38,083 nucleotides of DNA, from the NCBI GenBank assembly GCA_027483405.1, contig JAIXUU010000094.1:1-38083 (forward strand). The letters run 5' to 3'. The DNA is from Planctomyces sp. (GTDB lineage Bacteria; Planctomycetota; Planctomycetia; Planctomycetales; Planctomycetaceae). Position 1 is the first letter of the stretch. The number at the start of each line of letters is the position of its first letter. This document shows positions 6,294 through 38,083 of this stretch, piece by piece. The position numbers and the translations under genes are program-made. A model generated the notes under the pieces. That model did no database searches. It worked only from the letters and a program-made list of their open reading frames with translations, and was not told where the DNA came from.

Positions 6294-6296
6294 CCG

Positions 6297-14710: not shown

Positions 14711-14717
14711 GGTTTTC

Positions 14718-15506: not shown

Positions 15507-15548
15507 TCCACACGCTCTCCCCGGGCCCATGATTCACTGCAGTCATTT

Positions 15549-16318: not shown

Positions 16319-16327
16319 GAGTGAATC

Positions 16328-18945: not shown

Positions 18946-18978
18946 CGCAACGACTCAGCCTCTGGTGAGGAGCTGAGC

Positions 18979-22490: not shown

Positions 22491-22498
22491 GGTGCCGC

Positions 22499-23020: not shown

Positions 23021-23397
23021 CAGGTGTACTACTCAGCCAGGGGGCGGCGCGGAAGGTTCGCACTGCGACGGAGCGTGTGCTGGGCAAAGGGCCGCCGCCG
23101 CCGATCAATCGCTCTCGGTCCGCTCCGCTGAGTCCAGAGAACCGTTACATGGGCAAGTTCCTCACGCCCTTGGAAGCTCCCGAGATCGACCCGGAGATTG
23201 ACCGCATTGTGCCGACCTCGGCACTCTTCAACGTCTGGCTGCCAGATCCTGAGCAGACCGACGTGCAGCTTATCCCTACAGACATCGAAATGCTGGTACA
23301 TAACTTCGACCCCAGCCTGACCGCCGATCCCGACATCTTCGGAAAGATTGAATACCTGAATGGAGTCTGGTCTCCCTACTGGGCCAGCTGCGAGTAA
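23017..23397 (+). CDS. Unknown tail-module protein, 126 aa
   Basis: Not recognised. The N-terminal third is basic and Pro-rich (RKVRTATERVLGKGPPPPINR). The rest is acidic with VPTSALFNVWLPDPEQTDVQLI and a C-terminal GVWSPYWASCE. No membrane segment. It overlaps the previous gene by 4 nt and lies in the late operon, so a minor structural role is likely. Confidence 0.55.
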   Translation: MTGVLLSQGAARKVRTATERVLGKGPPPPINRSRSAPLSPENRYMGKFLTPLEAPEIDPEIDRIVPTSALFNVWLPDPEQTDVQLIPTDIEMLVHNFDPSLTADPDIFGKIEYLNGVWSPYWASCE

Positions 23398-23409
23398 AGG
23401 ATTGCTGAG

Positions 23410-24672: not shown

Positions 24673-24685
24673 TCGCGCAACGCCT

Positions 24686-24704
24686 GGCCTCATAACGGGA
24701 GGCC
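24686..24704 (+). promoter_or_regulatory. Hairpin that covers the ribosome-binding site of recombinase 1
   Basis: GGCCTC (24686-24691) pairs with GAGGCC (24699-24704); the Shine-Dalgarno GGGAGG (24697-24702) is mostly inside the right arm. This could keep recombinase translation low unless the hairpin is opened. Confidence 0.5.
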
Positions 24705-24709
24705 TTGCT

Positions 24710-25561
24710 GTGTTGCTGGCAGATGCGATTGATGGATTCCTGAAGCATGTTCTCGCGACGCGCAAGCCCGCGACGGAACGTCATTATCGCGAACGATTGC
24801 AGTCTCTCCGGAAGTTGCACGGTGCCAGTGAGATCTCGTCACTGACCACATCGTCGATCGAGGAACACTTTGCCCGGGCCAATCACTGGCCGGACGGCAG
24901 GCCCAAGGCTCCCGATACCATCCGGGCCAACATCATTGCGTGGGAGCAGCTGCAAGCGTTCCTCCTGCAGGAGCAGCTCCTGCAGGAGAAGCTGACTGGC
25001 CCACTGGCCAAGCCCTCTGGTCAACTGCGCGAACGACTCCCGACCAAGGAGGAGGTGGCCAAGATTCTGGCGGCCGCCGTCCCTGCCTTTGCTCTGATCT
25101 ACCGGGCCTTGAGATTGTCCGGCTGCCGGCCGAGCGAGCTGGCCAAGGCGACATTTGCCGACTGGGATCAACGCGAAGGAGTGATCAGCCTGGCTGACCA
25201 CAAGACCGCCAAGAAATCCAAGCGACCCCGACGCATCGCCGTCGGTGACAAATTACTCGAGTATCTGCGCGTGGCGATCGGCGACCGTACGGAGGGGCCG
25301 CTTTTCCTGACCAGCCAGGGCAAGCCCTGGACTTCCGCCAGGCTTTCGCAGGAGTTCCGCCGCACGCGCGAGCGGGCCGGGCTCTCAAAGGATCTTGTGC
25401 TGTATCTCACGAGGCACGAACACGCGACCCAGTTGTGCGAGAAGCTCGATCTCAATGCGGCCGCTGAGGCTTTGGGCCATGCATCGCTCAACACGACCCG
25501 ACGTTACCTGCACCTCTCAGCCAAGAAGCTGAAAGCCAACCAAGACCTGTTCGAGGAGTGA
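24710..25561 (+). CDS. Tyrosine recombinase 1 (phage integrase or XerC/D-like)
   Basis: 283 aa. SAM-like N-terminal core-binding domain (residues 1-95), catalytic domain with R140 (LSGCRPSEL), Lys near 165 (HKTAKKSKRPRRI), R235 (YLTRHEHAT), H257 (LGHASLNTT) and nucleophile Y266 (RRYLHLS). In the HxxR box the usual His is Tyr (Y232). Length and simple layout are closer to Xer-type than to arm-binding integrases. Start GTG at 24710 with GGGAGG 7 nt upstream. A dimer-resolution role beside the ParB-like gene is an alternative to integration. Confidence 0.85.
   Translation: MLLADAIDGFLKHVLATRKPATERHYRERLQSLRKLHGASEISSLTTSSIEEHFARANHWPDGRPKAPDTIRANIIAWEQLQAFLLQEQLLQEKLTGPLAKPSGQLRERLPTKEEVAKILAAAVPAFALIYRALRLSGCRPSELAKATFADWDQREGVISLADHKTAKKSKRPRRIAVGDKLLEYLRVAIGDRTEGPLFLTSQGKPWTSARLSQEFRRTRERAGLSKDLVLYLTRHEHATQLCEKLDLNAAAEALGHASLNTTRRYLHLSAKKLKANQDLFEE
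24962..24988. repeat. Two tandem 12-bp palindromes inside recombinase 1
   Basis: CTCCTGCAGGAG occurs at 24962-24973 and again at 24977-24988, separated by CAG. It encodes LLQEQLLQE. Each copy is itself a perfect palindrome. Confidence 0.6.
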
Positions 25562-25566
25562 TTTTA

Positions 25567-25947
25567 ATGAGTAGATTTTTGGATAACTTTGAAGGCCCCC
25601 TTCTCTTTGCCTTGATCCTCTGTTTGATCGCTTTCGGCATCTTGATGATTGCCGACAGTGCGACGGGCGATCATGAAAGCATTGGCATCCATACGGTGGA
25701 AGATCGCTCGCATGCAGCCAGCACAGTCCAGGCCGTTCCCGTGTATGGACCCGACGGGAACATGAGTGTGGCTGTCTTTGGCGACCCTGAGCGATGGGAG
25801 ATCCTCTGCACGAAAGCTGGTCAAGTCGTGCCAGTGAAAGTGACCCCCCAGCAATGGGCCAAGTTCAAGCCGGGCGAGAAAGTCGAGCTATATCGGTGGC
25901 GTGGCGGGATCATCGGCGGAACTTCCGACCGTCCTTACATCCGCTGA
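25567..25947 (+). CDS. Single-span membrane protein, 126 aa
   Basis: The N-terminal helix at residues about 10-30 (PLLFALILCLIAFGILMI) anchors the protein; the rest is soluble (VPVYGPDGNMSVAVFGDPERW, VPVKVTPQQWAKFKPGEKVELYRWRGGIIGG), a small beta domain. GAGGAG lies 8 nt before the ATG at 25567, better than GTG at 25558. It may be co-expressed with recombinase 1. Candidate superinfection-exclusion or conversion protein; no family recognised. Its TGA stop begins dispersed palindrome copy 6. Confidence 0.6.
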   Translation: MSRFLDNFEGPLLFALILCLIAFGILMIADSATGDHESIGIHTVEDRSHAASTVQAVPVYGPDGNMSVAVFGDPERWEILCTKAGQVVPVKVTPQQWAKFKPGEKVELYRWRGGIIGGTSDRPYIR

Positions 25948-25962
25948 TTTCCTCAGAAATCA
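25945..25962. repeat. Dispersed palindrome copy 6 (overlaps a stop codon)
   Basis: TGATTTCCTCAGAAATCA. The first TGA is the stop of the membrane-protein gene. Confidence 0.75.
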
Positions 25963-25979
25963 GTGACTGAAAACAAGGT

Positions 25980-26011
25980 GGCCGTGGGGATGTTGACGCA
26001 CCCCCACGGCC
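25980..26011. other. 10-bp inverted repeat in the gap before methyltransferase 1
   Basis: GGCCGTGGGG (25980-25989) pairs perfectly with CCCCACGGCC (26002-26011). No T-run follows. The 25948-26193 gap otherwise holds only weak short frames (for example 26051 onward, MEREMQWRTCAQ...); I see no convincing gene there. Confidence 0.5.
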
Positions 26012-26193
26012 TGCAAATCGACCTGCGATCACAGGCCGACTGCCTTCGCGATGGAGCGAGAGATGCAGTGGCGAACCTGTGCGCAAAACGTAGGTCAACC
26101 TGCAGGCCTGAGCGGTCTGCCGCGTGGCCCTCCGGAAAAGATCGATCGACTGTTCGTCGTCTGGATCGATCATTCCGTTTGTGAGGGTTCATC

Positions 26194-27018
26194 ATGCGAC
26201 ATCAGATACTTCCGTGGTTCGGCTCGAAGGCGGCCTTGGCCGCTGAGATCTTGCCCGAGTTCGGCCAGCACAAGTCCTACGTCGAACCGTTCGGCGGCGG
26301 CATGGCCATGCTGCTCTCGAAGCCTGCCTGCCGATCGGAGACTGTCAACGATCTGCATCAGGATCTGACTCACCTGGCCCGGGTCATCGCTGACCCGTAT
26401 CAGGGAGCAGCACTCTACCGGCGGATGCGTCGAATCCTCTGCTGTGAGCAGCTACACCGCGAAGCCCGGGAAAGAATTAAACAGCCATTTATGGCCACGC
26501 TCGATCGAGCTGTGGATTTCTTTCTGGTGTCATGGATGTCCCGTCAGGGTGTTTGCGGTTCGCAGACCAGCAACACGATGGCTCACGGGTATCAGGTGTC
26601 GAGCCATCCCTGTTCCAACAAGCTGACCGGTGCTGTGGAATCGATTCGTGCCTGGCAGTCTCGCATGCGTCAGGTCACCATCACCAACCGCGATGCCTTC
26701 CAGTTGCTGGGGAAGCTGAAGGATGAAGCGGGGCTGTTGATCTATTGCGACCCCCCTTGCCTGCAGAAGAATGGTCGGTACATCTTCGACCTGAACGACG
26801 ACGGACATGATCAACTTGCTCAGTCACTCCAGCGGTTTTCCAAAGCCCGGGTGATTGTCAGTTACACCGAGCATCATCGCCTGGCTCAGCTTTATCCCGA
26901 AAAGAAGTGGGCCAAGAAGATTCTCAACTATAAGGCCCGGGCGAATCGTGGCGCTAAGGTGCCCTCGATCAAGCCGCCCGAAGTCCTGCTTATCAATGGG
27001 CCTCTCCTGAAGGCCTGA
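26194..27018 (+). CDS. DNA N6-adenine methyltransferase 1 (D12 class, Dam-like)
   Basis: 274 aa, family length. WFGSKAALAAEILPEF (residues 8-23) and the AdoMet site YVEPFGGGMAML (29-40) are clear. The catalytic DPPY is DPPC at 186-189 (IYCDPPCLQK), a Tyr-to-Cys change in a residue that normally stacks on the flipped adenine. Either the gene is degenerate in activity or the variant tolerates it. Such phage enzymes usually mark DNA against host restriction. No endonuclease gene is adjacent. ATG at 26194 starts the domain. Confidence 0.8.
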   Translation: MRHQILPWFGSKAALAAEILPEFGQHKSYVEPFGGGMAMLLSKPACRSETVNDLHQDLTHLARVIADPYQGAALYRRMRRILCCEQLHREARERIKQPFMATLDRAVDFFLVSWMSRQGVCGSQTSNTMAHGYQVSSHPCSNKLTGAVESIRAWQSRMRQVTITNRDAFQLLGKLKDEAGLLIYCDPPCLQKNGRYIFDLNDDGHDQLAQSLQRFSKARVIVSYTEHHRLAQLYPEKKWAKKILNYKARANRGAKVPSIKPPEVLLINGPLLKA

Positions 27019-27035
27019 GTCTATCAACTTCACCT

Positions 27036-27070
27036 GCAGCCGCTGGCTGTTGCTGGCGGCTGCCTTGTTT
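27036..27070 (+). terminator. Possible terminator between methyltransferases 1 and 2
   Basis: GCAGCCGC (27036-27043) pairs perfectly with GCGGCTGC (27056-27063) around a 12-nt loop, followed by CTTGTTTG. The T-run is short. Confidence 0.5.
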
Positions 27071-27072
27071 GA

Positions 27073-27828
27073 ATGCAGAGTATGAAACCGTTTTACGAAG
27101 ATGATCTTGTCTCGCTGTACCATGGCGATCTGTTCGACGTCCTGCCGACGATTGAGCCAGGCTCGATTCATTCGCTGATCACTGACCCGCCCTATTGTTC
27201 CGGCGCTCCGGGTGCCGGCGTGAAGGCTGACCCGATCACCAAGTATTGCCAGAACGGCAACGCTCTCGGTCGCCCGAGTTTTGGAGGTGACTCCAAGAAT
27301 GAACGTGGCTTTTCGTTCTGGTGTCTCCAGTGGCTGAGGATCTGCAGGCAGCTCGTGAAGGAGGGAGGCTACGGTCTGGTGTTCATCGACTGGAGGAACC
27401 TGCCCTCAATGTGTGATGCCCTGCAGGCGGCCGACTGGATCCATCGGGGAGTCGCGGCCTGGGACAAGGGGCTGGGTTCGCGATCGCCACACAAGGGATA
27501 CTTCCGCCATCAATGCGAATACATCGTGTGGGGGACGAATGGGCCTTGCCGCAATCGGGATGATGCCGGGCCATTCGTCGGCTGCCACCACATTCCGAAC
27601 GACCTTAAGGACAAGCATCACATCACAGGGAAGCCGGTGAAGTTGATGGCCGAGCTGGTGAAGGTCGCTCCTGTGGGAGAAACGATTCTCGATCCGTTTG
27701 CCGGCTCAGGTACCACACTCCTCGCAGCGAGACAGGCCGGGCGAAAGGCGATCGGCATTGAGCGCGAAAGATCGTATTGCGAGATCACTGCCAGACGTCT
27801 GCAGGCAGCTGCTCAACAGGCTGCCTGA
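27073..27828 (+). CDS. DNA methyltransferase 2 (N4-cytosine/N6-adenine, beta-type order)
   Basis: 251 aa (248 from the ATG at 27082). The catalytic motif DPPY is at 38-41 (SLITDPPYCSG), and the AdoMet motif DPFAGSGTT lies near the C-terminus (TILDPFAGSGTTLLAARQAG), the beta-class order. A target-recognition region lies between. It is the last gene before the tRNA-like attachment site, so it sits at the edge of the integrated prophage. Specificity cannot be read from the sequence. Confidence 0.88.
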   Translation: MQSMKPFYEDDLVSLYHGDLFDVLPTIEPGSIHSLITDPPYCSGAPGAGVKADPITKYCQNGNALGRPSFGGDSKNERGFSFWCLQWLRICRQLVKEGGYGLVFIDWRNLPSMCDALQAADWIHRGVAAWDKGLGSRSPHKGYFRHQCEYIVWGTNGPCRNRDDAGPFVGCHHIPNDLKDKHHITGKPVKLMAELVKVAPVGETILDPFAGSGTTLLAARQAGRKAIGIERERSYCEITARRLQAAAQQAA

Positions 27829-27868
27829 CAGCTGAACAATTAGCCCATCATAAAAGTTCAGGTCGTTG

Positions 27869-27925
27869 CAGAAGATCAACGGACTTTTAATCCGTAGGTC
27901 GAGGGTTCGAGTCCCTCCGCTCTCA
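27869..27925 (+). other. 3' part of a tRNA-Lys(UUU) gene, putative attP core
   Basis: Perfect anticodon arm: ACGGA (27879-27883), loop CTTTTAA with anticodon TTT, TCCGT (27891-27895). Then AGGTC, T-arm GAGGG-TTCGAGT-CCCTC (27901-27917), acceptor 3' strand CGCTCTC and discriminator A (27925); no encoded CCA. The 5' acceptor strand (GAGAGCG) and a D-arm are missing upstream, so this is not a functional tRNA. A 3' tRNA fragment in a phage genome is the classic attachment-site core that restores the host tRNA after integration. Confidence 0.8.
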
Positions 27926-28073
27926 CTCTCGATCGATCTTTGAAACATCTGAAACAGCGAGGGAATGAGGCCGTGTCCGTCAGGGCCACGGGATGTGATA
28001 GGCGTGCTCTTTGAGCCTGCGGGCTCCGCGATTGGGGCCATTGCATTTGTCAACCTCTTCCCCCCATGGCCGT

Positions 28074-28111
28074 CACCCCGCCGCTCAGCACCGGCGGGGT
28101 GCTTGCTTTTA
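28074..28111 (+). terminator. Rho-independent terminator downstream of attP
   Basis: CACCCCGCCG (28074-28083) pairs perfectly with CGGCGGGGTG (28092-28101) around CTCAGCAC, followed by CTTGCTTTT. It would insulate the attachment site from the accessory gene downstream. Confidence 0.75.
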
Positions 28112-28119
28112 GCCCCACG

Positions 28120-28154
28120 TAGATCATCGGATTGGTAGTCCGGTGATCTACCAA
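28120..28154. other. Two overlapping, mutually exclusive hairpins
   Basis: Hairpin A: TAGATCATCGGA (28120-28131) with TCCGGTGATCTA (28139-28150), one T-G pair. Hairpin B: TTGGTAG (28132-28138) with CTACCAA (28148-28154). They share bases 28148-28150 and A's loop is B's left arm, so only one can form at a time. Confidence 0.55.
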
Positions 28155-28193
28155 ACCAACAAGATAGGCAAAATGCGGTGAACAAGCTGGATG

Positions 28194-28221
28194 TTTACTT
28201 GCTCTTCTGAATAGATATGAT
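28194..28221 (+). promoter_or_regulatory. Sigma-70-like promoter for the 28265 gene
   Basis: TTTACT at 28194-28199 and TATGAT at 28216-28221, spacing 16 nt, 43 nt upstream of the ATG at 28265. With the terminators on both sides it makes the next gene an independent unit. Confidence 0.55.
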
Positions 28222-28264
28222 GCCTTAGCTAAAGGTGCCGTTTTCACTTTTCCCTAGGGCTCAC

Positions 28265-28816
28265 ATGAAAAGACTTTCTGGCTGTGCTGTCGTTTGCTTT
28301 CTGGGTCTGATCGCGTTGTGCATCGTCCCCGCCATCTTTGCCAAAAGAGGTGGGCCTGCTGCCAACAGAGTTGTACCTCAGCCAGTTAATCAGGACCCGG
28401 TAAAGGTTATCCCTGGTCTATTGCCAGCGGATGTCTACCTGAGTCTCACAAAGCGAGGGTTCTCTAAAGAAGGGCCTATCGGTAGTCCTTCGATGTGGCG
28501 ACTCAAACGGGAGTCAGATGGCGTGATGATGGATGTCGAGATCTTTTCTCCTGACAACACCAGCAGGGTCTCGTCAGTTAGAGCTTTCTGTGTTTCTCCT
28601 GATGGAGTGCGCGTCGATGAGGCTGGGAAAATGAAGTGGCTGTTTCCTTTTCTGGCCACACTACCCTATGAAGGAGCTGAGCCAATCAAGGCACAACAGT
28701 GGGTCATTGAGCACATGCAAACTGGCGGCGAGACGGTCATTGGCTCGGTGAAGTTTCAAATTCTTGGGACTGACTCTGAGTTCTCAAGAGCCCTCCGAAT
28801 CAGTGTTGTCGAGTAG
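28265..28816 (+). CDS. Exported or membrane-anchored accessory protein, 183 aa
   Basis: N-terminal MKRLSGCAVVCFLGLIALCIVPAIFAKR is a signal peptide or anchor (basic start, hydrophobic residues 6-25, AxA-like end IFA). The mature part is a small alpha/beta domain (VYLSLTKRGFSKEGPIGSPS, MMDVEIFSPDNTSRVSSVRAF, QWVIEHMQTGGETVIG) of unknown family. It stands alone with its own promoter and strong terminator next to attP, the layout of a lysogenic-conversion 'moron' expressed from the prophage. The T-rich, less GC-rich sequence around it supports separate acquisition. Confidence 0.65.
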   Translation: MKRLSGCAVVCFLGLIALCIVPAIFAKRGGPAANRVVPQPVNQDPVKVIPGLLPADVYLSLTKRGFSKEGPIGSPSMWRLKRESDGVMMDVEIFSPDNTSRVSSVRAFCVSPDGVRVDEAGKMKWLFPFLATLPYEGAEPIKAQQWVIEHMQTGGETVIGSVKFQILGTDSEFSRALRISVVE

Positions 28817-28834
28817 TTTTTTTGAGTACTGCAG

Positions 28835-28862
28835 AAGCCGCTCTCACGAGCGGCTTTTTTTA
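28835..28862 (+). terminator. Rho-independent terminator of the accessory gene
   Basis: AAGCCGCTC (28835-28843) pairs perfectly with GAGCGGCTT (28848-28856) around TCAC, followed by TTTTTTATT. Confidence 0.92.
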
Positions 28863-29389
28863 TTGCTTGACTTTCTCTGGCTTCGATGCTTTGATCATCG
28901 CCGCAGTCATCGGACTGTACCCCGTGACAAGGGTTCTGTTTTCAATCGCGTTCTCGACGTGTCCACTGGCGTGCTCTCAGCTCGCCGGGAGTCGCGGCCC
29001 GAACGCAACCTTTGGGTTCTATGTTCGGCCGGTCCCGTTTCCGCGATTGCGGGATTGTCACCGGCTCCCGTGTTCCGCCGCTGAGTTTTTGCTGGCTACC
29101 TACATAAGCAGACCCGCCCATGTAGGTAGATACCCACTACGCACGCACAGTTCCCATTCTGTGCGTGCGTGGTGACCAGCTTAATCGAGCGGCATGCCGG
29201 CAGATGATGATTCATCTGCGCAAGGATGTCGTGCGCTCATGAAAATTTTGAGCTATAGATCAGTAGGAGTCAGCTCCTCACGACTGATCGAGCAGTCACT
29301 CACCCAGCCCGTCATGGATGGTCTTTTGGAATCGAGCCGGGTCGCTCCCGGTGCGGGCATTCCCATGTCCCAGGAAGTCCACGGAAGCC
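28863..29389. other. Hairpin-rich non-coding stretch upstream of recombinase 2
   Basis: No plausible gene is seen. Perfect inverted repeats: CTACCTACAT/ATGTAGGTAG (29096-29105/29120-29129); ACGCACGCACAG/CTGTGCGTGCGT (29139-29150/29159-29170, extendable to 16 pairs); GCAGATGA/TCATCTGC (29200-29207/29212-29219); GATCAGT/ACTGATC (29258-29264/29283-29289) enclosing AGGAG/CTCCT. None is followed by a T-run. It could be a structured RNA, a recombination region or a control leader of the recombinase. Confidence 0.5.
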
Positions 29390-30505
29390 ATGCAGAATCA
29401 ATTCACAATCACACCTCCACGGCCACTACTGGCCCAGGCACCTCGCATCTTCAAGCTGGTGATCGACCCGGATCAATCCAGCCATGGAGACGCGCCTCTC
29501 TCGGTTCATTCCACATTGCGGGAATGCTTCGAGAAGGCGGTCTTGCCGGAGATCGAGATTGCCGAATCGACCATCATCGAATACGAGGCGATGCTCAACC
29601 ACTGGGAACGCATCATGCGCACCGTGGGAGTGGGCACGATCGACAAGGCCACGCTCAAGCAGTTTCGCGACAAGCTCGCCGCCGAACGCTGGACTCGATC
29701 GAAGTCACCCAAGGCTCATGGCAAGCCACGATCTGCCGCGACTGTCAACAAGATCATGCGGCACCTGAAGGCTGTCGTCATGAAGCTCTTTCCACCCGAC
29801 CGGCACAACCCCGAGGGGCTCGGCCTGGTACCGCTCTGCAAGTTCCCCGGGCGTCTGGAAGAGCCAGCGAAACTCCCCTTCACTTACAGTCGCTCAGCGA
29901 TGTCCGCGCTCTATCGAAACGCCCACGCAGCCAAGCCGGAGAAGACGACTCGATCGACGCCGCTCTATCGGCCGGAGCTCTGGCAGCTGGCGATTGTGCT
30001 CGGCTTTGGGACCGGGCCGCGATCGTGGGACTTGCTTTCGATGACTTGGGACCGGATTGGCTGGGAGGATTTTCAGTATGGGTCGATCAGCTTCAAGGCA
30101 CAGAAGACCAAGAAGCTGCAACGCATCCCACTGAGTCAGGTCGCACGCCGGCATCTGGAGATCGTCCGCGACCTGCAGCTGCACGAGACCGAAATCTTCC
30201 CGATGTTCCGGAAGACCAATCGCAGTGTCTATCGATGCTGGCGACGCATCTGTGTGGCAGCCGGACTCATTGCACCCGAGGGCCGCAATGCTCACTTCGA
30301 GGATCTTCGCAAGACCTGCTCGACAGCGTACGACGACATCTCGCCGGGAGTCGGTCCCTGGATCACGGGTCACGAGCTACAGGGGGTCAATGCCAAGAAT
30401 TATCAGAACCCTACGAAGCGGGTGTTGAAGGCTGTGAAGCAGCTCAAACAACCCTTGGCATTTCGCGAGGGGGCCGGGCTGATCAAGCCCTCCACCGAGA
30501 ACTGA
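29390..30505 (+). CDS. Tyrosine recombinase 2 (integrase-like)
   Basis: 371 aa. The N-terminal core-binding domain is residues about 40-135. Catalytic residues: R211 (GFGTGPRSWDL), Lys near 242 (KAQKTKKLQRIPL), R307 (FEDLRKTC), H328 (ITGHELQG) and nucleophile Y338 (KNYQNP). The His of HxxR is Glu304 (a His lies two residues before). ATG at 29390 follows ACGGAAG; the leader contains AGGA and ACGGA, possible CsrA sites. The longer frame starting at 29318 would need no ribosome-binding site. Distance to attP is 1.5 kb. Its TGA stop starts dispersed palindrome copy 7. Confidence 0.82.
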   Translation: MQNQFTITPPRPLLAQAPRIFKLVIDPDQSSHGDAPLSVHSTLRECFEKAVLPEIEIAESTIIEYEAMLNHWERIMRTVGVGTIDKATLKQFRDKLAAERWTRSKSPKAHGKPRSAATVNKIMRHLKAVVMKLFPPDRHNPEGLGLVPLCKFPGRLEEPAKLPFTYSRSAMSALYRNAHAAKPEKTTRSTPLYRPELWQLAIVLGFGTGPRSWDLLSMTWDRIGWEDFQYGSISFKAQKTKKLQRIPLSQVARRHLEIVRDLQLHETEIFPMFRKTNRSVYRCWRRICVAAGLIAPEGRNAHFEDLRKTCSTAYDDISPGVGPWITGHELQGVNAKNYQNPTKRVLKAVKQLKQPLAFREGAGLIKPSTEN

Positions 30506-30520
30506 TTTCTCTGGAAATCA
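30503..30520. repeat. Dispersed palindrome copy 7 (overlaps a stop codon)
   Basis: TGATTTCTCTGGAAATCA. The first TGA is the stop of recombinase 2. Confidence 0.72.
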
Positions 30521-30544
30521 ATCACATCACTGGTCTGCCGCAGG

Positions 30545-30597
30545 CGCGCCCGGTCTCTGCTGTTTCTCCTGGAGCAGAGGCCGGGCGTGGCCGTTTT
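30545..30597 (+). terminator. Long-stem terminator after recombinase 2
   Basis: GCCCGGTCTCTGCT (30548-30561) pairs with AGCAGAGGCCGGGC (30573-30586) with one T-G pair, extendable by three pairs; followed by GGCCGTTTTCAC. Confidence 0.75.
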
Positions 30598-30618
30598 CAC
30601 TCATCAAGGAATCTGATC

Positions 30619-30894
30619 ATGGGCTTTTCCCGCCCTCCACTCACGGTCGAGCAAAGGCTGGCTGCTCTGCGTGCCGGCATAAGTCATCAGAAGATCAACG
30701 TCTTTATGGACGTCTCGATGATTTTGCAGTTCGTGCATGAAGGCCGCTGCCTACACAAAGGCTGCCAGATCTGCCTTCAACTCGAGCTCATCGTCGAGCA
30801 AGGCCTGCTTCACCCGATGGAATCAACCACGGATCCACAGGCACAGCCTGCAGGTTCCGATATAGATCGGAAATCGGAAGGGGGGCCGGGCTAA
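30619..30894 (+). CDS. Small unknown early protein, 91 aa
   Basis: MGFSRPPLTVEQRLAALRAG then a helical core with CLHKGCQICLQLELIVEQGL holding a C-x4-C-x2-C pattern (residues about 45-55) that may bind zinc. AAGGA at 30606-30610 is 8 nt before the ATG. First gene of the early operon, overlapping the next start (TAATG). Family not recognised. Confidence 0.6.
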   Translation: MGFSRPPLTVEQRLAALRAGISHQKINVFMDVSMILQFVHEGRCLHKGCQICLQLELIVEQGLLHPMESTTDPQAQPAGSDIDRKSEGGPG

Positions 30895-31118
30895 TGCCAA
30901 TCGACCTGCAGACCGAGTTCCAAGGAATGCTAGCAGCAGCCTGGGACAAACCCGGCAGCATGCCTTCTGAGCAGTTTGAGCAGCTGCAGCAGGCCTTTTA
31001 CGGCGGGGCACTTTGTGCCCTCAAAGATCTGCCGCCTGAGGATCCCCATAAGCAGGCAATCAAGCTGCAGATCGATAACTACCTGCGCAACTACAAGCTC
31101 AGGCATGGCCTGAGATGA
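30894..31118 (+). CDS. Small unknown early protein, 74 aa
   Basis: All-helical acidic protein (LQTEFQGMLAAAWDKPGSMP, EQFEQLQQAFYGGALCAL, LQIDNYLRNYKLRHG). The ATG overlaps the previous stop. The 3' end forms a 7-bp hairpin (CTCAGGC/GCCTGAG, 31098-31114) followed at a distance by TTTTTT (31124-31129), a possible weak terminator before csrA. Family not recognised. Confidence 0.6.
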   Translation: MPIDLQTEFQGMLAAAWDKPGSMPSEQFEQLQQAFYGGALCALKDLPPEDPHKQAIKLQIDNYLRNYKLRHGLR

Positions 31119-31149
31119 TCCCGTTTTTTACTTACTGAAGGAACGCACG

Positions 31150-31359
31150 ATGCTAGTCCTCTCCCGCAAGCCGAATGAAACCATCCGCCTGACGATCCCT
31201 GAGAATCTTCCCCCTGGCACAGTGATTGAGATCACCGCGATCGATGTCAGGTCAAACACAGTAAGGCTTGGCCTGACAGCTCCTCGATCGGTGCAGATCG
31301 TGCGGGCCGAACTGGTTGACGAGTCGGCTGATCCGCAACTCTCAGCCGACGCCGCTTAG
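31150..31359 (+). CDS. csrA: Carbon storage regulator CsrA, phage-encoded
   Basis: 69 aa. The family signature MLVLSRKPNETIRL at the start, VRLGLTAPRSVQIVRAE at 38-54. Key RNA-binding residues L4, R6 and R52 (equivalent to R44 of the enterobacterial protein) are present. About 8 extra residues lie between beta strands 2 and 3 (PENLPPGTVIEI). CsrA dimers bind ANGGA in hairpins or leaders and usually block translation. AAGGA precedes the ATG at 31150, so it may regulate itself. Targets may include phage leaders with GGA motifs (recombinase 2, capsid). Confidence 0.9.
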   Translation: MLVLSRKPNETIRLTIPENLPPGTVIEITAIDVRSNTVRLGLTAPRSVQIVRAELVDESADPQLSADAA

Positions 31360-31388
31360 GTCAGGAGTCACCAGCAAGGAAGCTCCTG

Positions 31389-32429
31389 ATGAGTAAGCAC
31401 AAAGCACCAGCACCCGGGCAGCAGGCATTGATTGCCACGCCGCCATACCCAAGGCGGCCACCCTACTTTGCTCTCAAATTCCTGAGGCTTGTCGATCGAT
31501 TTTTCGGGCCTCAATACAACCCTCGAATTGTGCAGATCCTCATGTACGTGGTCTTAACTGAAGATCGACGTCGATACGCCAGCGAACCGACGTTCTGGCT
31601 CTCCCAGATCCGCGATCGCATTGGCCTGAAGGATGACAGCCACACGGCTGCCCTGATTCAACAGGCTGTGCAATCGGGCTGGCTCTACTGGCACAAGCCC
31701 TCGAATCGAGAACTTGCCACTGCCTGGGTGTTGGTGCCACTGGCTTATGAATGCGAGTTATCGAATGGATCAGAAGCGGAAGATCATTTACCCGGGCTGC
31801 AGCCCGGGTATCACCCCGGGTATCACCCCGGGTATCACCCCCGCAAAGACCCCGGCAAAGACCCAGTGAAAGACCCCCTGTCTTCTTTCCCTAACCTTAA
31901 CCCATCCCCCTCCCCCAAAGATGGGGTGGAAGAGGAGGTGGAAAAGTTGCTGCAGGCAGCAGGAGTGGCAAAGCACCTCGAAACGATCGAGGCATCGAGA
32001 AAGCTGGGCAACTCCTTCGAGTGGATCAGAGCCAAGATTCAATTCTTTCAAGCGAACAAGGGAAGCGACTGGGGGCCAGGTCTCCTCGCAACCCACCTGA
32101 AATGCCGTAGTTTCGCGGGGACGCCTGCGAACCATGGCTGGCCGACTCGAACCACATCCGTGGCTTCGAGGACGCCTGACGCTGCTGCAGAGGCCATCCG
32201 GTCAACGCAGCAGCTCGAACGTGACCGGCGGGAGAGGCAGCTCGAATTCCAGTTCGGGCCGCTTGTGGATCAGCTCTCATCCGATGAGCAGATCGATCTC
32301 CTCAAGGCACGTCCTGACGCCGATCGACTGATTGAACTCTTCCGCAGCTCATACCGAGCGAGAGGCAAGGGAGGCGTTGTCCGACGCGCCCTGCTTGAGG
32401 AGTTCGCCAGGCGGCATACCGCCGCCTGA
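31389..32429 (+). CDS. Replication initiator-like protein with repeat linker, 346 aa
   Basis: Residues about 45-125 (NPRIVQILMYVVLTEDRRRY, WLSQIRDRIGLKDD, AALIQQAVQSGWLYWHK) fit a winged-helix DNA-binding domain like lambda O-type initiators. Residues 138-165 are the linker LQPGYHPGYHPGYHPRKDPG continuing KDPVKDP, encoded by 12-bp tandem repeats. The C-terminal half is helical and charged. Iterons inside the initiator gene, followed by a pyrimidine-rich tract, mirror lambda ori. AGGAAG lies upstream of the ATG at 31389. No helicase loader or polymerase gene is visible, so host machinery is probably recruited. Confidence 0.65.
   Translation: MSKHKAPAPGQQALIATPPYPRRPPYFALKFLRLVDRFFGPQYNPRIVQILMYVVLTEDRRRYASEPTFWLSQIRDRIGLKDDSHTAALIQQAVQSGWLYWHKPSNRELATAWVLVPLAYECELSNGSEAEDHLPGLQPGYHPGYHPGYHPRKDPGKDPVKDPLSSFPNLNPSPSPKDGVEEEVEKLLQAAGVAKHLETIEASRKLGNSFEWIRAKIQFFQANKGSDWGPGLLATHLKCRSFAGTPANHGWPTRTTSVASRTPDAAAEAIRSTQQLERDRRERQLEFQFGPLVDQLSSDEQIDLLKARPDADRLIELFRSSYRARGKGGVVRRALLEEFARRHTAA
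31791..31878 (+). repeat. Iteron-like tandem repeats, putative replication origin
   Basis: An 18-bp palindrome CCCGGGCTGCAGCCCGGG (31791-31808), then three 12-bp copies of CCCGGGTATCAC (31803-31838), then three 12-bp copies related to GCAAAGACCCCG (31843-31854, 31855-31866, 31867-31878). A pyrimidine-rich stretch follows (31875-31918). The repeats keep the reading frame (PGYH, KDPG). Confidence 0.7.
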
Positions 32430-32447
32430 CTTCACCACGGATGGCCA

Positions 32448-32894
32448 GTGGGCACGGAGGCCCCTTTCATCAACCTCACACAGGAGGCACGCTCAGCGTG
32501 CGCACGTATGGCGAAAATCCCCACCACGATCGACGGCTTTTATGACTGGCTGTGCCGGCAGGTGCCTGATGGAAATAGCGTTCATTTCAATGTGGAGTTG
32601 TACCATCATAAAGATCGAGGCCGCCTGTCAACCTCGGCCTTCTACATCATTGACCTCAATGATTATGCGAAGGAGAAGCATGAGCAGATTCGCGAGCTGC
32701 TCCACAAGAGGTTTCATTCATTGGATGAGGCTGGCATGTGGGTCACGAACCACGCGATCCCTCTCCTGAAAGGGGCTCGGCTCGAAGTGCCGAGGCCAAA
32801 GCGGCGACGGCTCACAGACACGCCCATTGGCCTGCCCAACAAGCAGCCGCTGCGCCTCGAACACAAACCCGAACCATCCCCATTGATCCCGTGA
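32448..32894 (+). CDS. Unknown early protein, 148 aa (or 128)
   Basis: Core TIDGFYDWLCRQVPDGNSV, HFNVELYHHKDRGRLSTSAF and YAKEKHEQIRELLHKRF, then a basic Pro-rich tail. Start is uncertain: GTG at 32448 gives 148 aa; ATG at 32508 gives 128 aa; neither has a well-spaced ribosome-binding site (AGGAGG at 32482-32487 is 20 nt before 32508). Family not recognised; no membrane segment. Confidence 0.55.
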   Translation: MGTEAPFINLTQEARSACARMAKIPTTIDGFYDWLCRQVPDGNSVHFNVELYHHKDRGRLSTSAFYIIDLNDYAKEKHEQIRELLHKRFHSLDEAGMWVTNHAIPLLKGARLEVPRPKRRRLTDTPIGLPNKQPLRLEHKPEPSPLIP

Positions 32895-32903
32895 GCTGGC
32901 TAG

Positions 32904-33176
32904 ATGAAACGCTTCCTCTGCCGAATCTTTGGCTGCGAAATCCACACACGCCAGGACGGCTGCTGCGATGAATGCGGTGCCTATATCTACGACGGGGATT
33001 ACATCCAACAGCCTTGCTGTTTGATCCGCACGTGGCGGATCTGGTGGCGATGGCTGGCCGCCGTGATGCTCGGCCACAAGTGCTGCCACTGTGGCAAACG
33101 CTACTGGGTGCCAGGGCCGGGCGGCGGCGAGCTGTTCTGCTCTCTCGAATGCGACCGAGAATATGTTCCCTTTTAA
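32904..33176 (+). CDS. Cys-rich Zn-ribbon protein with central hydrophobic segment, 90 aa
   Basis: Cys pairs in DGCCDECG (residues 19-25), HKCCHCGKRYW (58-68) and FCSLEC (78-83) resemble zinc ribbons. The middle (RIWWRWLAAVMLG) is hydrophobic and Trp-rich and may be membrane-associated. No known family. It starts 10 nt after the preceding gene's stop. Ribosome-binding site AAGGA for the next gene overlaps its stop. Confidence 0.6.
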   Translation: MKRFLCRIFGCEIHTRQDGCCDECGAYIYDGDYIQQPCCLIRTWRIWWRWLAAVMLGHKCCHCGKRYWVPGPGGGELFCSLECDREYVPF

Positions 33177-33186
33177 GGATCTCCCC

Positions 33187-33441
33187 ATGAAGACCAAGCG
33201 AAACCCGAAGAACCTGAGAGAGTGGCAGGAAGCGGCCGACGCCGCCGAGCTCTTCCTGCAGATTGATTCGGCCAGATCTTACGGCCTGATTACTGGCGGC
33301 CCGGTCGTTGATGTCGATCGCTGCGAGGAGCTGCTCAAGCTCGCCGCTCGCCGCAAGATTCGACCCAACAAAGATGGCCTCGGTCTCATCCTGCAGGGAC
33401 TGAAGACCACAGGGGGTCAACTGGTGGAGAAGCCACGATGA
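33187..33441 (+). CDS. Small unknown early protein, 84 aa
   Basis: Basic N-terminus (MKTKRNPKNLREWQEAADAAEL), then a helical domain with VVDVDRCEELLKLAARRKIRP. AAGGA at 33174-33178 is 8 nt before the ATG at 33187. The stop overlaps the next start (ATGA). No known family. Confidence 0.6.
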   Translation: MKTKRNPKNLREWQEAADAAELFLQIDSARSYGLITGGPVVDVDRCEELLKLAARRKIRPNKDGLGLILQGLKTTGGQLVEKPR

Positions 33442-33788
33442 GAAACATCTCTTTCGCGATGACCACCCAGCAGATCCTCGATCGCACCAAGACGGTCACA
33501 CGTCGCCTGGGCTGGAAGTTCCTCAAGCCGGGCGAATTCCTGCAGGCCTGCGAGAAGTGCCAGGGGCTCAAGCCAGGTGAGAAGCTCTGCAAGCTGGCAG
33601 TGATCGAGGTGGTATCGATCCACACTGTGCCACTGAACTCCATACGCAATGAGGATGTGGCCCGGGAAGGATTTCCGGGCATGCATTGGCATCAGTTCGT
33701 GGCCATGTTCTGTGAAGCCATGGCCTGCCAGCCGCAAGACCCAGTCCAACGGATCGAGTTCAAATATGTGGATGAGGTGGCCCGATGA
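33438..33788 (+). CDS. ASCH-domain (PUA-like) protein
   Basis: 116 aa. NISFAMTTQQILDRTKTVTRRLGW then LKPGEFLQACEKCQGLKPGEKL and LAVIEVVSIHTVPLNSI match the ASCH proteins common in phage early operons: a small PUA-like beta barrel with the TKTVTRR motif. Such proteins are thought to bind RNA or modified nucleotides. The exact job is unknown. ATGA overlaps on both sides. Confidence 0.75.
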   Translation: MRNISFAMTTQQILDRTKTVTRRLGWKFLKPGEFLQACEKCQGLKPGEKLCKLAVIEVVSIHTVPLNSIRNEDVAREGFPGMHWHQFVAMFCEAMACQPQDPVQRIEFKYVDEVAR

Positions 33789-34171
33789 GTACCGCAACCA
33801 AGAAACGCTGCACCTGCATTGAATGCGGGATCTCTTTTGGCATTCGACCGCCTGGCACATTTTCGCCAGTGACTTGTGAGGAGTGTACCAGCAAGCTTGA
33901 ACCGAGACTGCTTTGTGCAAAGTGCGGTCGGATCATCGCCCGGGGAGAGTGTTATGTTCCGACTTGTATCTGCTCCGTCTGTGCTTCCGACTGGCTTCGG
34001 GAGGCCGAGATCGAAGCCTGGAACGATTACGTCGAAAGCGACGGCGACAACGAGCATGGCCGGTTCTCAGGACTGTATGAAAATCTCAGAGAAAAGTTGC
34101 AGTCTCGCAACTGGATCGAGTGCATCAGCTTGGCAAGGTGTATTCCAGTTTTGTTGGAGGTGGCACGATGA
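33785..34171 (+). CDS. Double Zn-ribbon protein, 128 aa
   Basis: C-x2-C pairs in CTCIECG and CEECT (residues about 9-36) and a second set CAKCG...CICSVCASDW (44-67). The rest is helical (REAEIEAWNDYVESDGDNE, LYENLREKLQSRNW). Probably a nucleic-acid-binding or scaffold protein of the early operon. Both ends overlap neighbours by 4 nt. Family not recognised. Confidence 0.6.
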   Translation: MSTATKKRCTCIECGISFGIRPPGTFSPVTCEECTSKLEPRLLCAKCGRIIARGECYVPTCICSVCASDWLREAEIEAWNDYVESDGDNEHGRFSGLYENLREKLQSRNWIECISLARCIPVLLEVAR

Positions 34172-34569
34172 AGCACCTCACCCTCAACAACGCCACGGGC
34201 TTCACGAGATCAGATCACTCCAAGACCTACCCTGCCGGCACGATCTGCATCGTCTATTCGGCGATTGATCACAACCAGTACCTCGACCTGAAGTGGCTTG
34301 CGGAAGAGATGAAGAAGGCCCGCAAGCTGAACGAAGGCCAGTCGGGTCCACCGGCCTATCTGGTCGTGATTGTGGCTGGTGAGTTCATCGCCGTGCTGCC
34401 ACGTGAGCAGATGGCTGTCATCGAGATCGATGAGCCAGAGCCATCGATCAACCTGGCAGGCTTCCGCGCTGGCCCGATCACTCTACAGCAATCGGAAGTT
34501 ATGCCGGCAGCCGCTCCCGAGTCGGTGAAGCCCTCCAAGAATGTCGCTCAAAGGAGTCTGTTCGAATGA
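34168..34569 (+). CDS. Unknown early protein with C-terminal QRSLF, 133 aa
   Basis: Beta-strand N-terminus (KHLTLNNATGFTRSDHSKTY, AGTICIVYSAIDHNQYLDL), a hydrophobic strand AYLVVIVAGEFIAVLP and an acidic tail. It ends AQRSLFE, which fits the sliding-clamp-binding consensus QxxLF, but these codons also hold the next gene's Shine-Dalgarno (AGGAGT). ATG at 34168 overlaps the previous stop. Family not recognised. Confidence 0.55.
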   Translation: MKHLTLNNATGFTRSDHSKTYPAGTICIVYSAIDHNQYLDLKWLAEEMKKARKLNEGQSGPPAYLVVIVAGEFIAVLPREQMAVIEIDEPEPSINLAGFRAGPITLQQSEVMPAAAPESVKPSKNVAQRSLFE

Positions 34570-35726
34570 CTCTAAAGCCACCGTTTCCATATTTTGGAGG
34601 CAAAGCTAAAGCCGCAAGCATTGTCTGGCGGCGATTTGGCAACGTGCGCAACTACATCGAACCGTTCGCAGGATCTGCCGCGATGCTGCTGGCTCGGCCC
34701 AGTACTCCGACGATCGAGACATTGAATGACGCCAACTGTTTCATCGCGAACTTCTGGCGAGCCGTCCAAAAGGAACCCGTGAAGGTTGCCCGGGCATGCA
34801 ATCATCCTGTCAATGAAGCCGATCTCCATGCATGGCATAGGTACCTGGTTCTCTCGGCTCGAGCCGCTGCTTTCCGGCAACAGGTTCGGGAGGATCCAGA
34901 GTACTTCGATCCAATCATTGCTGGGAAATGGGTTTGGGGACTTTGCCAGTGGATTGGTTCCGGATGGTGCAATCTCAATGAGAGTGAAGGTTGGGTTGAA
35001 GGTCGAACCGCCGAGGGCGATTGCGAAGGTAGACGTCCAGTCTTGTCTGTCTCGAATGGTGTTTTAAAACGTCAGATGCCATCCATTGGAGGAGACTGCG
35101 GAGCCTCAGGGCGGGGTGTTCATCGCAAGCTGCCTCGTCTCTCAGGCTGCAGTCCGGCTGGCGTGAAAATACATGCCCCGATGATGGCAGTCGATGTGAA
35201 GCGTCCTGCCTTGGGAAATCGTCGCGGCATCATTCGTGGCTGGCACGAAGATACCTGCGAACGTCGTGAGTCCTGGTTGATCGAGTGGTTCCATCAACTG
35301 CAAGACCGGCTCCGTCCTGTGCGTGTTTGCTGTGGTGACTGGAAGCGGGTGTGCAGCTCGCCGAGCGTCACTACGAAAATCGGTCTGACGGGTGTCTTCC
35401 TGGATCCGCCATACCTGGGCGAGGTCGAGGGAATCAAGTCGAGAGACTCACGAATTTACTCGATCGAGGATCTTTCAATCGCGAACGACGTGCGGGAATG
35501 GTGCCTCGCCCGTGGCCACAATCCGCTTTTCCGGATCGCTCTGTGCGGACTCGAAGGAGAGCACAATCCCCTCGAAGACCATGGCTGGACAAAGATCGCC
35601 TGGCGAAGCCGGGGTGGCTATGGCAATCGTCGGAAAGCAAACGCAAATCGGGATCGAGAACGCATCTGGTTCAGCCCTCATTGTCTCGATGTTGCCAGCA
35701 GCTCGGTAAGGAGTCTCTTTGAATGA
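34566..35726 (+). CDS. DNA N6-adenine methyltransferase 3 (D12 class)
   Basis: 386 aa, longer than usual. FPYFGGKAKAASIVWRRF (residues 7-24), AdoMet motif YIEPFAGSAAML (30-41) and catalytic DPPY (280-283, VFLDPPYLGEVEG). The region about 150-215 is an insertion (GRRPVLSVSNGVLKRQ...) between motifs that may hold extra target recognition. It ends SVRSLFE. Unlike methyltransferase 1 the DPPY is intact. It is translationally coupled to both neighbours (ATGA). Confidence 0.85.
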   Translation: MTLKPPFPYFGGKAKAASIVWRRFGNVRNYIEPFAGSAAMLLARPSTPTIETLNDANCFIANFWRAVQKEPVKVARACNHPVNEADLHAWHRYLVLSARAAAFRQQVREDPEYFDPIIAGKWVWGLCQWIGSGWCNLNESEGWVEGRTAEGDCEGRRPVLSVSNGVLKRQMPSIGGDCGASGRGVHRKLPRLSGCSPAGVKIHAPMMAVDVKRPALGNRRGIIRGWHEDTCERRESWLIEWFHQLQDRLRPVRVCCGDWKRVCSSPSVTTKIGLTGVFLDPPYLGEVEGIKSRDSRIYSIEDLSIANDVREWCLARGHNPLFRIALCGLEGEHNPLEDHGWTKIAWRSRGGYGNRRKANANRDRERIWFSPHCLDVASSSVRSLFE

Positions 35727-36205
35727 CGTACGCATCGAAAACAAAGGTTTCTGTTGAGAAGACTCGATTTGAGATCGAGAAGCTGCTGAAGCAATCAGGG
35801 GCTTCACACTTTGGTTTTGCCACCGAGCCTCAATTGGCCGTGATCCAGTTCATTTTGCGGGATCGGCATGTGCGAGTGTTCCTGCCATTGCCGGCCGCGG
35901 ACGAGAAGCAATTCAAGTTCACGCCAGCGGGGAGAGCGCAGCGCTCAGAGGCATCACGACTGGAGGCTTGGGAGCAGGCCTGCAGGTCACGCTGGCGGGC
36001 ACTACTCCTGTCGATCAAAGCCAAGCTCGAAGCCATCCGGGAAGGGATTGCGACGTTCGACGAAGAGTTCCTTGCGCACTTGGTTGACCGTGAGTCGGGC
36101 CGCAATGTGGGTCACCTGGTCATTCCCGACCTGCAGCAGCGAAACGCGAACATCAACAAGTCTCACGGGCCGCTCAGGCTTGGTCACAGCGAGGTGATTA
36201 AATGA
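35723..36205 (+). CDS. Conserved hypothetical phage/plasmid protein, 160 aa
   Basis: MTYASKTKVSVEKTRFEIEK, LKQSGASHFGF..., FLPLPAADEKQFKFTPAGRA and AWEQACRSRWRALLLSIKAK follow the layout of a widely seen, uncharacterised protein (short N-terminal strand, central helix with Arg/Trp, then FDEEFLAHLV). Its occurrence on phages and plasmids fits a DNA-maintenance role, but no function is known to me. ATGA overlaps at both ends. Confidence 0.65.
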   Translation: MTYASKTKVSVEKTRFEIEKLLKQSGASHFGFATEPQLAVIQFILRDRHVRVFLPLPAADEKQFKFTPAGRAQRSEASRLEAWEQACRSRWRALLLSIKAKLEAIREGIATFDEEFLAHLVDRESGRNVGHLVIPDLQQRNANINKSHGPLRLGHSEVIK

Positions 36206-36441
36206 GGCACCACAAGGTGAAGCCACTGGCCGGGCAGCTCTCACTGCTGGGCGAACTGCCTGTGAAGTATTGCCCGATTTGCGGCCGCCGACTGACCAGC
36301 GATCGCAGCCATAAGGCGGGCATTGGCCCGCAATGCCGACGTCAGGCTCACATCATTCAGCGTAAAGACTCCGTCGCCAAGTTGATCCAACGCATCGTCA
36401 CAAAAGTTAGGAAAGCCCCGTGTCAAAGGTCATCGAAGTGA
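36202..36441 (+). CDS. Small Zn-ribbon protein with clamp-like motif, 79 aa
   Basis: CPICGRRLTSDRSHKAGIGP then QCRRQ gives C-x2-C...C Zn-ribbon of the CPxCGRxLTxxxSxxxGxGPxC type (residues about 24-46), found in many phage small proteins. Residues 12-16, QLSLL, match the sliding-clamp-binding consensus. The C-terminus is basic. It overlaps the next gene's start by 22 nt. Confidence 0.65.
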   Translation: MRHHKVKPLAGQLSLLGELPVKYCPICGRRLTSDRSHKAGIGPQCRRQAHIIQRKDSVAKLIQRIVTKVRKAPCQRSSK

Positions 36442-36779
36442 AACAAGCCAAGCCAACAGAAGAAGATTACGAATGTTTTTTGGATTTCATGTACGGTCTT
36501 GAGCGAATGCTTGAGCATCGACTGCACCCCGATCGCGACAGGGATGAGGACATCGATACCAATTGGATCGATGAGAACTTGCGATACTGGATTGAAAGCC
36601 AATGGGAGAATCGAAGTAAACCTCACGATGTCTCTTGCGTCTGGCAGCGAGTGTTCTACGCCGGGCAATGTGCTGTCGAAAACTCCTGCGATCCATCCAA
36701 GGACGTCCTCGAATGGCGGCCTGAAATCCAGCAGGCTCTCGACTTCTACGAGGCCCACGGTCCGAAGGTGATGCAGTGA
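36420..36779 (+). CDS. Unknown early protein, 119 aa
   Basis: Acidic helical protein (EEDYECFLDFMYGLERMLEH, DEDIDTNWIDENLRYWIES, QQALDFYEAHGPK). Start GTG at 36420, with TAGGAAA about 8 nt upstream. Its stop (TGA 36777-36779) overlaps the GTG of the ParB-like gene (GTGA). Family not recognised. Confidence 0.6.
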   Translation: MSKVIEVKQAKPTEEDYECFLDFMYGLERMLEHRLHPDRDRDEDIDTNWIDENLRYWIESQWENRSKPHDVSCVWQRVFYAGQCAVENSCDPSKDVLEWRPEIQQALDFYEAHGPKVMQ

Positions 36780-38083
36780 TTGAATCACTATCTGACCTGC
36801 GGCCGCTCTTTGAGCAGCCGGGCGAGGAGGGCGACTGGTGGCGTGCGGTCATGCCTTACATCGCCAGCCAGGTCAGCGGCTGGAGTCCCGCCTGGCTGAC
36901 GGCCACCGAGGAAGAGCTGCTCAACCCGACTTATGTCGCTGTGCTGGCTCTGGGTTCCATCAACGACCGCACGAAAGGCCTTCACTTTGAACACGGTCAC
37001 TCATGGGTGACTTCCGAAGTCAACCACGCTCTGCGAAATCTCGAACTGATTTGTTCCCCAACCCCTGAAGAGGAAATCTTTCTTATGGCCACGAAAACGA
37101 AACCCGCCCCAACCAAGCCAGCGAAAACCACCAAGCCAGCCAAGCCGAAAGATGCCGCTCCTGAGGAGGCATCGATCGAGCATCCCGGAAAGGCGTTCGT
37201 CGTCGATCGAAGTCGCGACATCCCTTTGTCTCAAATGGATCCATCGCCCTGGCAGGTGAGAAAGAAAACCAACAGCCAGTGGATCGCCGAGCTCGGTCAA
37301 TCGCTCCTGCAGGACGGGCAGATCAATCCTCTGATCGTCAGGGCGTCAGACGCCAATCGATATGAGATCATCGCAGGCCACACGCGAGCCTTTGCGGCCG
37401 AACAGGTCGGCCTGAAGTCGCTTCGATGCGATGTTGTCGAATGCGATGATGAGACGGCTCAGCGGCTCGTGTTGATCGATAACGCGAAGCGAAAGGATCT
37501 CACGACGATTGAGCAGGCCCAGGCACTGAAGGCACTTGTCGATACTTACGAGGCCGCCGGCAAGAGCCAGAGGCAGCTGGCGGCCGACATCGGGATCAGC
37601 CAGGGCCAGATCAGCAACTTGACCCGGCTGCTGCTCCTGCCGGCAGAGGTGCAGGAGCTTGTGATTTCTGGAGAAATCACTCAGGCCGCCGCCCGCGAAG
37701 CAGTGCCCATGCTGCAGCATCCAAAGATCGCCAAGGCCTTTGTTGCGGAGATTGCTGAGTACAGAGATCAGGCGAGAGAGAGAGCGGAGAGCGACGGCGA
37801 GGAGCCCAAGATTGACCTGATGATTTCGATACGTTCAGTTGTGCGGGAGATCGGTCGATCACTTGATGGTCAGGCCTTTCACCAAGGCCGTTGGAAAGAT
37901 CGTGCGTTCAAGCTAACCCCTGAGATTGAGCAGCAGCTCGATATCATCGATCTTTCAGACAACCCCAAGCAGCCCCGACGATATGCACTCAACACCAAGT
38001 TGTGGGACGATCTGCAGGCGAAGGCAGAAGCCAAAAAGAAAGCGGATGAGCAGAAGGGCATTGAAGGCAAGAAAGACAAGAAG
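36776..38083 (+). CDS. ParB-like DNA-binding protein, N-terminal part (cut by the window end)
   Basis: Frame open from GTG 36776 to the last base (436 codons). From the internal ATG 37085: Ala/Lys/Pro linker (residues 1-35), ParB/sulfiredoxin domain with IPLSQMDPSPWQVRK, AGHTRAFAA (98-105, Box II-like) and NAKRKDLTTIEQA; HTH SQRQLAADIGISQGQISNLT (161-180); then LPAEVQELVISGEITQAAAREA. The 103 codons upstream of 37085 encode a Trp-rich helical domain (DWWRAVMPYIASQVSGW) not usual in ParB. GAGGAAA lies upstream of 37085, so both starts are possible. No ParA gene is seen. It probably continues at base 3 of the window. Confidence 0.8.
   Translation, partial: MIESLSDLRPLFEQPGEEGDWWRAVMPYIASQVSGWSPAWLTATEEELLNPTYVAVLALGSINDRTKGLHFEHGHSWVTSEVNHALRNLELICSPTPEEEIFLMATKTKPAPTKPAKTTKPAKPKDAAPEEASIEHPGKAFVVDRSRDIPLSQMDPSPWQVRKKTNSQWIAELGQSLLQDGQINPLIVRASDANRYEIIAGHTRAFAAEQVGLKSLRCDVVECDDETAQRLVLIDNAKRKDLTTIEQAQALKALVDTYEAAGKSQRQLAADIGISQGQISNLTRLLLLPAEVQELVISGEITQAAAREAVPMLQHPKIAKAFVAEIAEYRDQARERAESDGEEPKIDLMISIRSVVREIGRSLDGQAFHQGRWKDRAFKLTPEIEQQLDIIDLSDNPKQPRRYALNTKLWDDLQAKAEAKKKADEQKGIEGKKDKK
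37661..37680. repeat. Dispersed palindrome copy 8 (inside the ParB-like gene)
   Basis: GTGATTTCTGGAGAAATCAC, 18-bp core identical to copy 5. It encodes VISGEIT, at the place where ParB proteins often have an SGEIS-like motif, so protein selection could explain part of this copy. Confidence 0.7.

Follow-up and report, generated by a model that had tools for sequence, protein, structure and literature searches.

Where does a circular phage element of the Planctomycetota begin its replication? The question is raised by one predicted gene in a contig of a Planctomyces species (JAIXUU010000094.1, 38,083 nucleotides; 'the window' hereafter means this whole stretch), in which a palindrome, a run of short direct repeats and a pyrimidine-rich tract follow one another within the coding sequence. 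We propose, with a probability of roughly 0.85, that a circular extrachromosomal phage (a phage-plasmid) of a Planctopirus-like planctomycete starts its replication at this array, which lies inside the gene of the phage's own initiator. The array is most likely an intragenic iteron origin in the style of lambda O or pSK41 Rep. The proposal draws on the anatomy of the array, its DNA-level conservation throughout a family of homologues, the circularity of the replicon, the predicted fold and the relatives that match phage initiators; from these we infer protein binding and origin firing.

The window comprises the whole contig and is a circular permutation of pPLIM01, the 37,010-bp circular element of Planctopirus limnophila DSM 3776. 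A ParB-family gene spans the contig ends (36725-38083 joined to 1-629) and corresponds to an intact 681-codon frame in pPLIM01 (PLIM_RS22030). Since this gene bridges both ends, the contig represents a circle that was cut inside the gene; about 47 bp are absent compared with pPLIM01. That the element is a phage follows from its terminase, portal, tape-measure and tail genes, and a circular extrachromosomal element that carries phage structural genes (terminase, portal, tape-measure) is by definition a phage-plasmid; a 2025 paper calls the extrachromosomal element of P. limnophila a prophage (PMC11958385). No replicon type is listed for pPLIM01 in PLSDB, and no replication gene is annotated in the stretch of pPLIM01 that was inspected. 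There, the homologue of our gene (PLIM_RS21975, 96-97% identical) is annotated 'hypothetical protein'. A transposon screen (Tn-seq) in P. limnophila reports exactly one plasmid gene to be essential, with a product of unknown function (PMC10632474).

The element has other features of its own. A nearly perfect 39-bp palindrome at 640-678, just after the ParB-like gene, is a candidate terminator or partition site. A possible tyrosine recombinase gene (24710-25561) matches Phage_integrase; the pPLIM01 counterpart of a second frame (29194-30894, without a Pfam match in the window) is annotated as a tyrosine-type recombinase (PLIM_RS21950). Recombinases of an extrachromosomal prophage may be used for dimer resolution. 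The circle also carries a gene for a Mu Gam-like end-protection protein (2594-3277) and three DNA methyltransferase genes (26194-27018, 27073-27828 and 34566-35726), the last of which matches the D12 family over only about its first 80 residues.

The features of the array and of the protein are collected in Table 1. A preliminary description of the locus had listed a CCCGGG-containing palindrome, two iteron families and a pyrimidine-rich tract, all of which are present where it placed them. The palindrome is longer than described, being perfect over 22 bp, and the two types of repeat, both real, belong to a single lattice of six units that keeps its 12-bp register throughout, rather than to separate families. 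The units start at 31803, 31815, 31827, 31839, 31851 and 31863, and the lattice ends at 31874; its consensus is CCCGGSWAWSAC, with positions 1, 2, 8, 11 and 12 identical in all six.

Table 1. Coordinates of the array, the predicted initiator gene and its domains in the window
Feature	Position	Strand	Remarks and evidence
Predicted initiator gene	31389..32429	+	346 aa; ORF and translation; AlphaFold2 mean pLDDT 81; some relatives match PHROG replication initiators
Region coding N-terminal winged-helix domain	31446..31751	+	Profile A2, residues 20-121, E=4e-35
Region coding disordered linker, carries the array	31776..31883	+	Residues 130-165; pLDDT <50 (~40)
Perfect 22-bp palindrome TACCCGGGCTGCAGCCCGGGTA, head of the array	31789..31810	.	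Sequence, hairpin test, synonymous-shuffle test
Iterons 1-3, CCCGGGTATCAC three times	31803..31838	+	Sequence; two copies in pPLIM01
Iterons 4-6, CCCCGCAAAGAC, CCCGGCAAAGAC, CCAGTGAAAGAC	31839..31874	+	Continue the 12-bp register of iterons 1-3
Pyrimidine-rich tract, candidate melting or loading segment	31881..31916	+	31/36 C or T; family-wide codon bias
Region coding helical C-terminal domain	31917..32423	+	Model; domain also joined to other N-terminal domains

Under synonymous codon shuffling, with the protein kept, a palindrome of at least 22 bp is rare (p=0.0006), and the 12-bp self-match score of the array (35) exceeds those of all 20,000 shuffles (null mean 13.7, maximum 33); for the pyrimidine richness of the tract the same comparison gives p=0.03 in the window gene. 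The 5.36-Mb genome contains CCCGGGTATCAC three times, always in the array. Elsewhere in the window, extra copies of this sequence are not above chance, and those of GCAAAGACCCCG number 50 with 40.5 expected. No other family of direct repeats (at least 15 nt, within 150 bp) was found in 1-19300 and 21700-38083, that is, with the tail-fibre region excluded; the tail-fibre gene itself, which encodes phage tail repeat and laminin-G-like domains, holds long tandem repeats of 177 and 111 bp at 19386-19847. The window contains no DnaA box. GC skew was a weak origin marker: its detrended minimum falls about 1 kb downstream of the array, and further off in pPLIM01.

We modelled the 346-residue protein with AlphaFold2 on the basis of 34 relatives. 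The winged-helix domain of the preliminary description is borne out, with helices and a wing predicted at residues 27-114 (pLDDT ~95); a helical C-terminal part begins at residue 177 (pLDDT 78 for the C-terminal model), and the array coincides with the codons of the disordered linker that joins the two. The label 'initiator' was a guess when it was given, because the protein itself has no Pfam match at E<=1 and no significant PHROG match. Nor did a single-protein search of viral contigs and a phage collection return relatives, or a sequence search of solved structures any credible match. The winged-helix model aligns with the DNA-binding domains of the RepA/Rep initiators 4pql, 4pt7, 4pta and 5kbj, which rank with the better fold matches though at middling scores (VIA-align Z 7.4-8.7), on a par with many unrelated winged-helix proteins; since winged-helix folds are common, such matches are weak evidence. 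Predicted viral proteins named replisome organizer, replication initiator and GpO N-terminal align over much of the model, at E-values of about 1e-3 to 1e-4 and with low TM-scores. For the C-terminal fold we found weak matches, none of them clear among the chains compared, and a DnaD-like fold was not recovered.

The repeats might instead be a feature of the protein, that is, a flexible proline/glycine-rich linker whose length changes by replication slippage and whose DNA has no role, an alternative that the preliminary description itself had raised. The linker is indeed predicted to be disordered, all repeats of the window array are in frame, and the pPLIM01 array is shorter by exactly one 12-bp unit, which is one four-residue unit of the protein. 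Divergence from pPLIM01 is 2/121 changes within the array and 52/905 outside, a reduction that is not significant (p=0.08). Because the window repeats are all in frame, the DNA-level argument for the window gene rests on its relatives.

Of 170 genomes of the family, 23 encode winged-helix relatives, as do a few genomes besides. In about 34 homologues across the Planctomycetota, the array layout is found at the same junction, right after the winged-helix domain; L015 and L059 are among the relatives with a weak array or none. Most homologues show the same order after the domain: a hairpin or palindrome, direct repeats at intervals of 11 or 12 bp or multiples thereof (spacings of 11, 12, 22, 23, 24, 34 and 46 bp), then a pyrimidine-rich stretch such as CCTATCCCTATCC. 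The repeat sequences of most homologues are unrelated to one another, as are their linker peptides, yet the DNA layout is kept. A strong A+T-rich element is absent near the arrays, which are surrounded by about 43-48% A+T vs about 41% elsewhere in the homologue family.

To quantify these patterns we shuffled synonymous codons within each gene, holding protein and codon usage constant; the Fisher p-values that follow take no account of the partial relatedness of the genes. Over the 200 nt that follow the domain, in-frame repeats are in excess (p<=0.05) in 18 of 33 genes (Fisher 3e-14), and out-of-frame repeats likewise in 18 of 33 (Fisher 3e-13). Flanking regions of equal size, 200 nt in front and two stretches behind, show no repeat excess (p 0.2-0.95). 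Autocorrelation in the homologue genes has excess peaks at 11, 12, 13, 22, 23, 24, 34, 44 and 46 bp. Inverted repeats also exceed the shuffles (Fisher 3e-11), and a hairpin with an arm that recurs as a downstream repeat reaches p<=0.05 in 14 of 34 genes, the window gene included (Fisher 3e-13). At four-fold degenerate third positions, 221 of 274 tract sites (81%) are pyrimidines vs 2871 of 6106 (47%) elsewhere in the genes, with a p-value of 4e-29 that is inflated by the choice of the tract as the richest window; when this choice is repeated in each shuffle, the per-gene test still gives Fisher 1e-10. The same scan flags the annotated iteron region in two positive controls, lambda O and phi80 gene 15.

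With out-of-frame repeats in about half of the genes, the signal lies in the DNA: such repeats encode different peptides, so selection on a linker cannot produce them. A flexible linker would also leave unexplained the hairpins that match iteron arms, the strong synonymous bias of the pyrimidine tract and the persistence of the DNA layout among unrelated linker peptides. We therefore consider a protein-only origin of the repeats very unlikely.

Are the proteins of this family initiators? Several relatives match the PHROG 'replication initiation', 'O-like' and 'DnaD-like' families, the best at 1e-39 over the full length and at 5e-5 for the winged-helix domain alone, and the phage homologues of two such relatives sit just upstream of DnaB/DnaC-type genes. 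Linker repeats are also seen in most of ten phage initiators that are more distant, in an exploratory scan that took the best window without correction for multiple windows. In four genes the C-terminal domain stands behind other N-terminal domains; repeats at the junction are significant in three, and the fourth has hairpins clear by eye. Multi-copy chromosomal relatives (L010, L014 and L020, in G040 and G077, with four in G040) combine the same C-terminal domain with another N-terminal domain, and their junctions carry GATCA/CCCC-containing hairpins. Four pairs of genes with a winged-helix identity of at least 76% share 15-25 array seven-mers and pairs below 45% share about one; overall, the correlation of seven-mer sharing with winged-helix identity is weak (rho 0.10, p 0.05).

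The plan is already known from lambda O and from RepA_N proteins such as pSK41 Rep. In lambda O and phi80 gene 15 the origin lies in the middle of the initiator gene, as does the window array, which follows the DNA-binding domain. The comparison with lambda ori that had been drawn beforehand, iterons beside a strand-asymmetric stretch inside the initiator gene, thus holds as anatomy, strongly supported by the family-wide pattern, but not in detail: in lambda, a 40-bp A+T-rich region adjoins 19-bp inverted-repeat iterons at a spacing of about 20-24 bp (PMC5043065), whereas the window has 12-bp direct repeats, a single leading palindrome and a pyrimidine tract. The number of lambda-type iterons varies among related phages, from four in lambda to six in Stx phages, whose O protein is 13 residues longer (PMC7466680). 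Phage_rep_O has no match in the window protein and is absent among the 25 of 28 Pfam families listed for the 34 relatives. The pSK41 Rep protein (RepA_N) consists, much like ours, of a winged-helix domain, a central linker encoded by the origin and a conserved C-terminal domain; its four Rep boxes lie centrally in rep, and its N-terminal domain is swapped together with the origin, as in pPR9 (PMC5703833). A central repeat array that encodes the linker, as in rep, is likewise found in the window gene. However, RepA_N (PF06970) has no match in the window protein at E<=1 and is likewise absent among the 25 of 28 Pfam families listed for the 34 members; the window differs from RepA_N plasmids in its G+C-rich iterons and in being a phage element of the Planctomycetota. 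In the PLE satellites of Vibrio cholerae, the DNA-binding domain of RepA covaries with the origin and the C-terminal domain is conserved, similar to the family here; the PLE origin is intergenic, with semi-palindromic iterons of about 30 bp (PMC8263062), in contrast to the intragenic window array. The window gene thus shares the plan of lambda O and RepA_N and belongs to neither at the sequence level, differing in iteron size, in orientation and in lacking an A+T-rich region. The initiator family is most likely undescribed; a 2024 survey of the planctomycete plasmidome (doi 10.1111/1462-2920.16638) may already name the gene as a putative initiator.

Plasmid and phage iterons can serve regulation as well. 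The array could be a binding site of the same protein, or of the ParB-like protein that the element encodes across the contig ends, and act in autoregulation, copy control or partition instead of initiation. Against this, such arrays accompany initiator-like genes at the junction of the winged-helix and C-terminal domains, not parB; the true origins of lambda, phi80 and pSK41 lie at the equivalent place; and 1-19300 and 21700-38083 hold no second repeat array that could act as an origin. A role confined to regulation or partition is thus unlikely. Action in mRNA, by attenuation or through CsrA, has a csrA homologue directly upstream (31150-31359) and a potentially strong RNA stem to commend it. 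The GGA motif typical of CsrA sites is missing from the array units, and a stem does not require long runs of direct repeats, which makes such a mechanism extremely improbable. The csrA gene is also present in pPLIM01; there, its 3' end extends into the start of the initiator gene homologue.

How might an intragenic origin of this kind work? The N-terminal winged-helix domain would bind the 12-bp iterons, nucleating on the palindrome; its binding to the lattice is strongly suggested. The resulting complex may then open or expose the adjoining pyrimidine-rich strand, and the C-terminal domain would recruit the host replicative helicase or primase, so that replication would fire at the array. 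Strand opening near the tract and recruitment are modelled by analogy on lambda O and pSK41 Rep (PMC5043065, PMC5703833), and the part given to the C-terminal domain is putative, as its fold has no clear match among the chains compared.

Model planctomycetes have no replicative plasmid, in P. limnophila common vectors fail to replicate, and knowledge of the elements that plasmid replication requires is only beginning to emerge (2025 methods paper, PMC11958385). The intragenic layout known from phage lambda offers a candidate origin for these bacteria: one gene (PLIM_RS21975) and about 130 bp on pPLIM01 can be named as candidate initiator and origin, which a mini-replicon could test directly. 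The synonymous-shuffle test, for its part, detects intragenic origins without any sequence conservation. As a wider hypothesis, to which we give slightly less than even odds, there may be a phage and plasmid initiator family throughout the Planctomycetota whose genes each contain a rapidly changing origin module of their own (a leading hairpin, an 11/12-bp iteron lattice not bound to the reading frame, and a pyrimidine tract in place of the A+T-rich unwinding element) and exchange this module as a unit with the DNA-binding domain; the family member on pPLIM01 would be the sole essential gene of that plasmid. In the homologues described here, iteron sequences turn over quickly under a constant layout.
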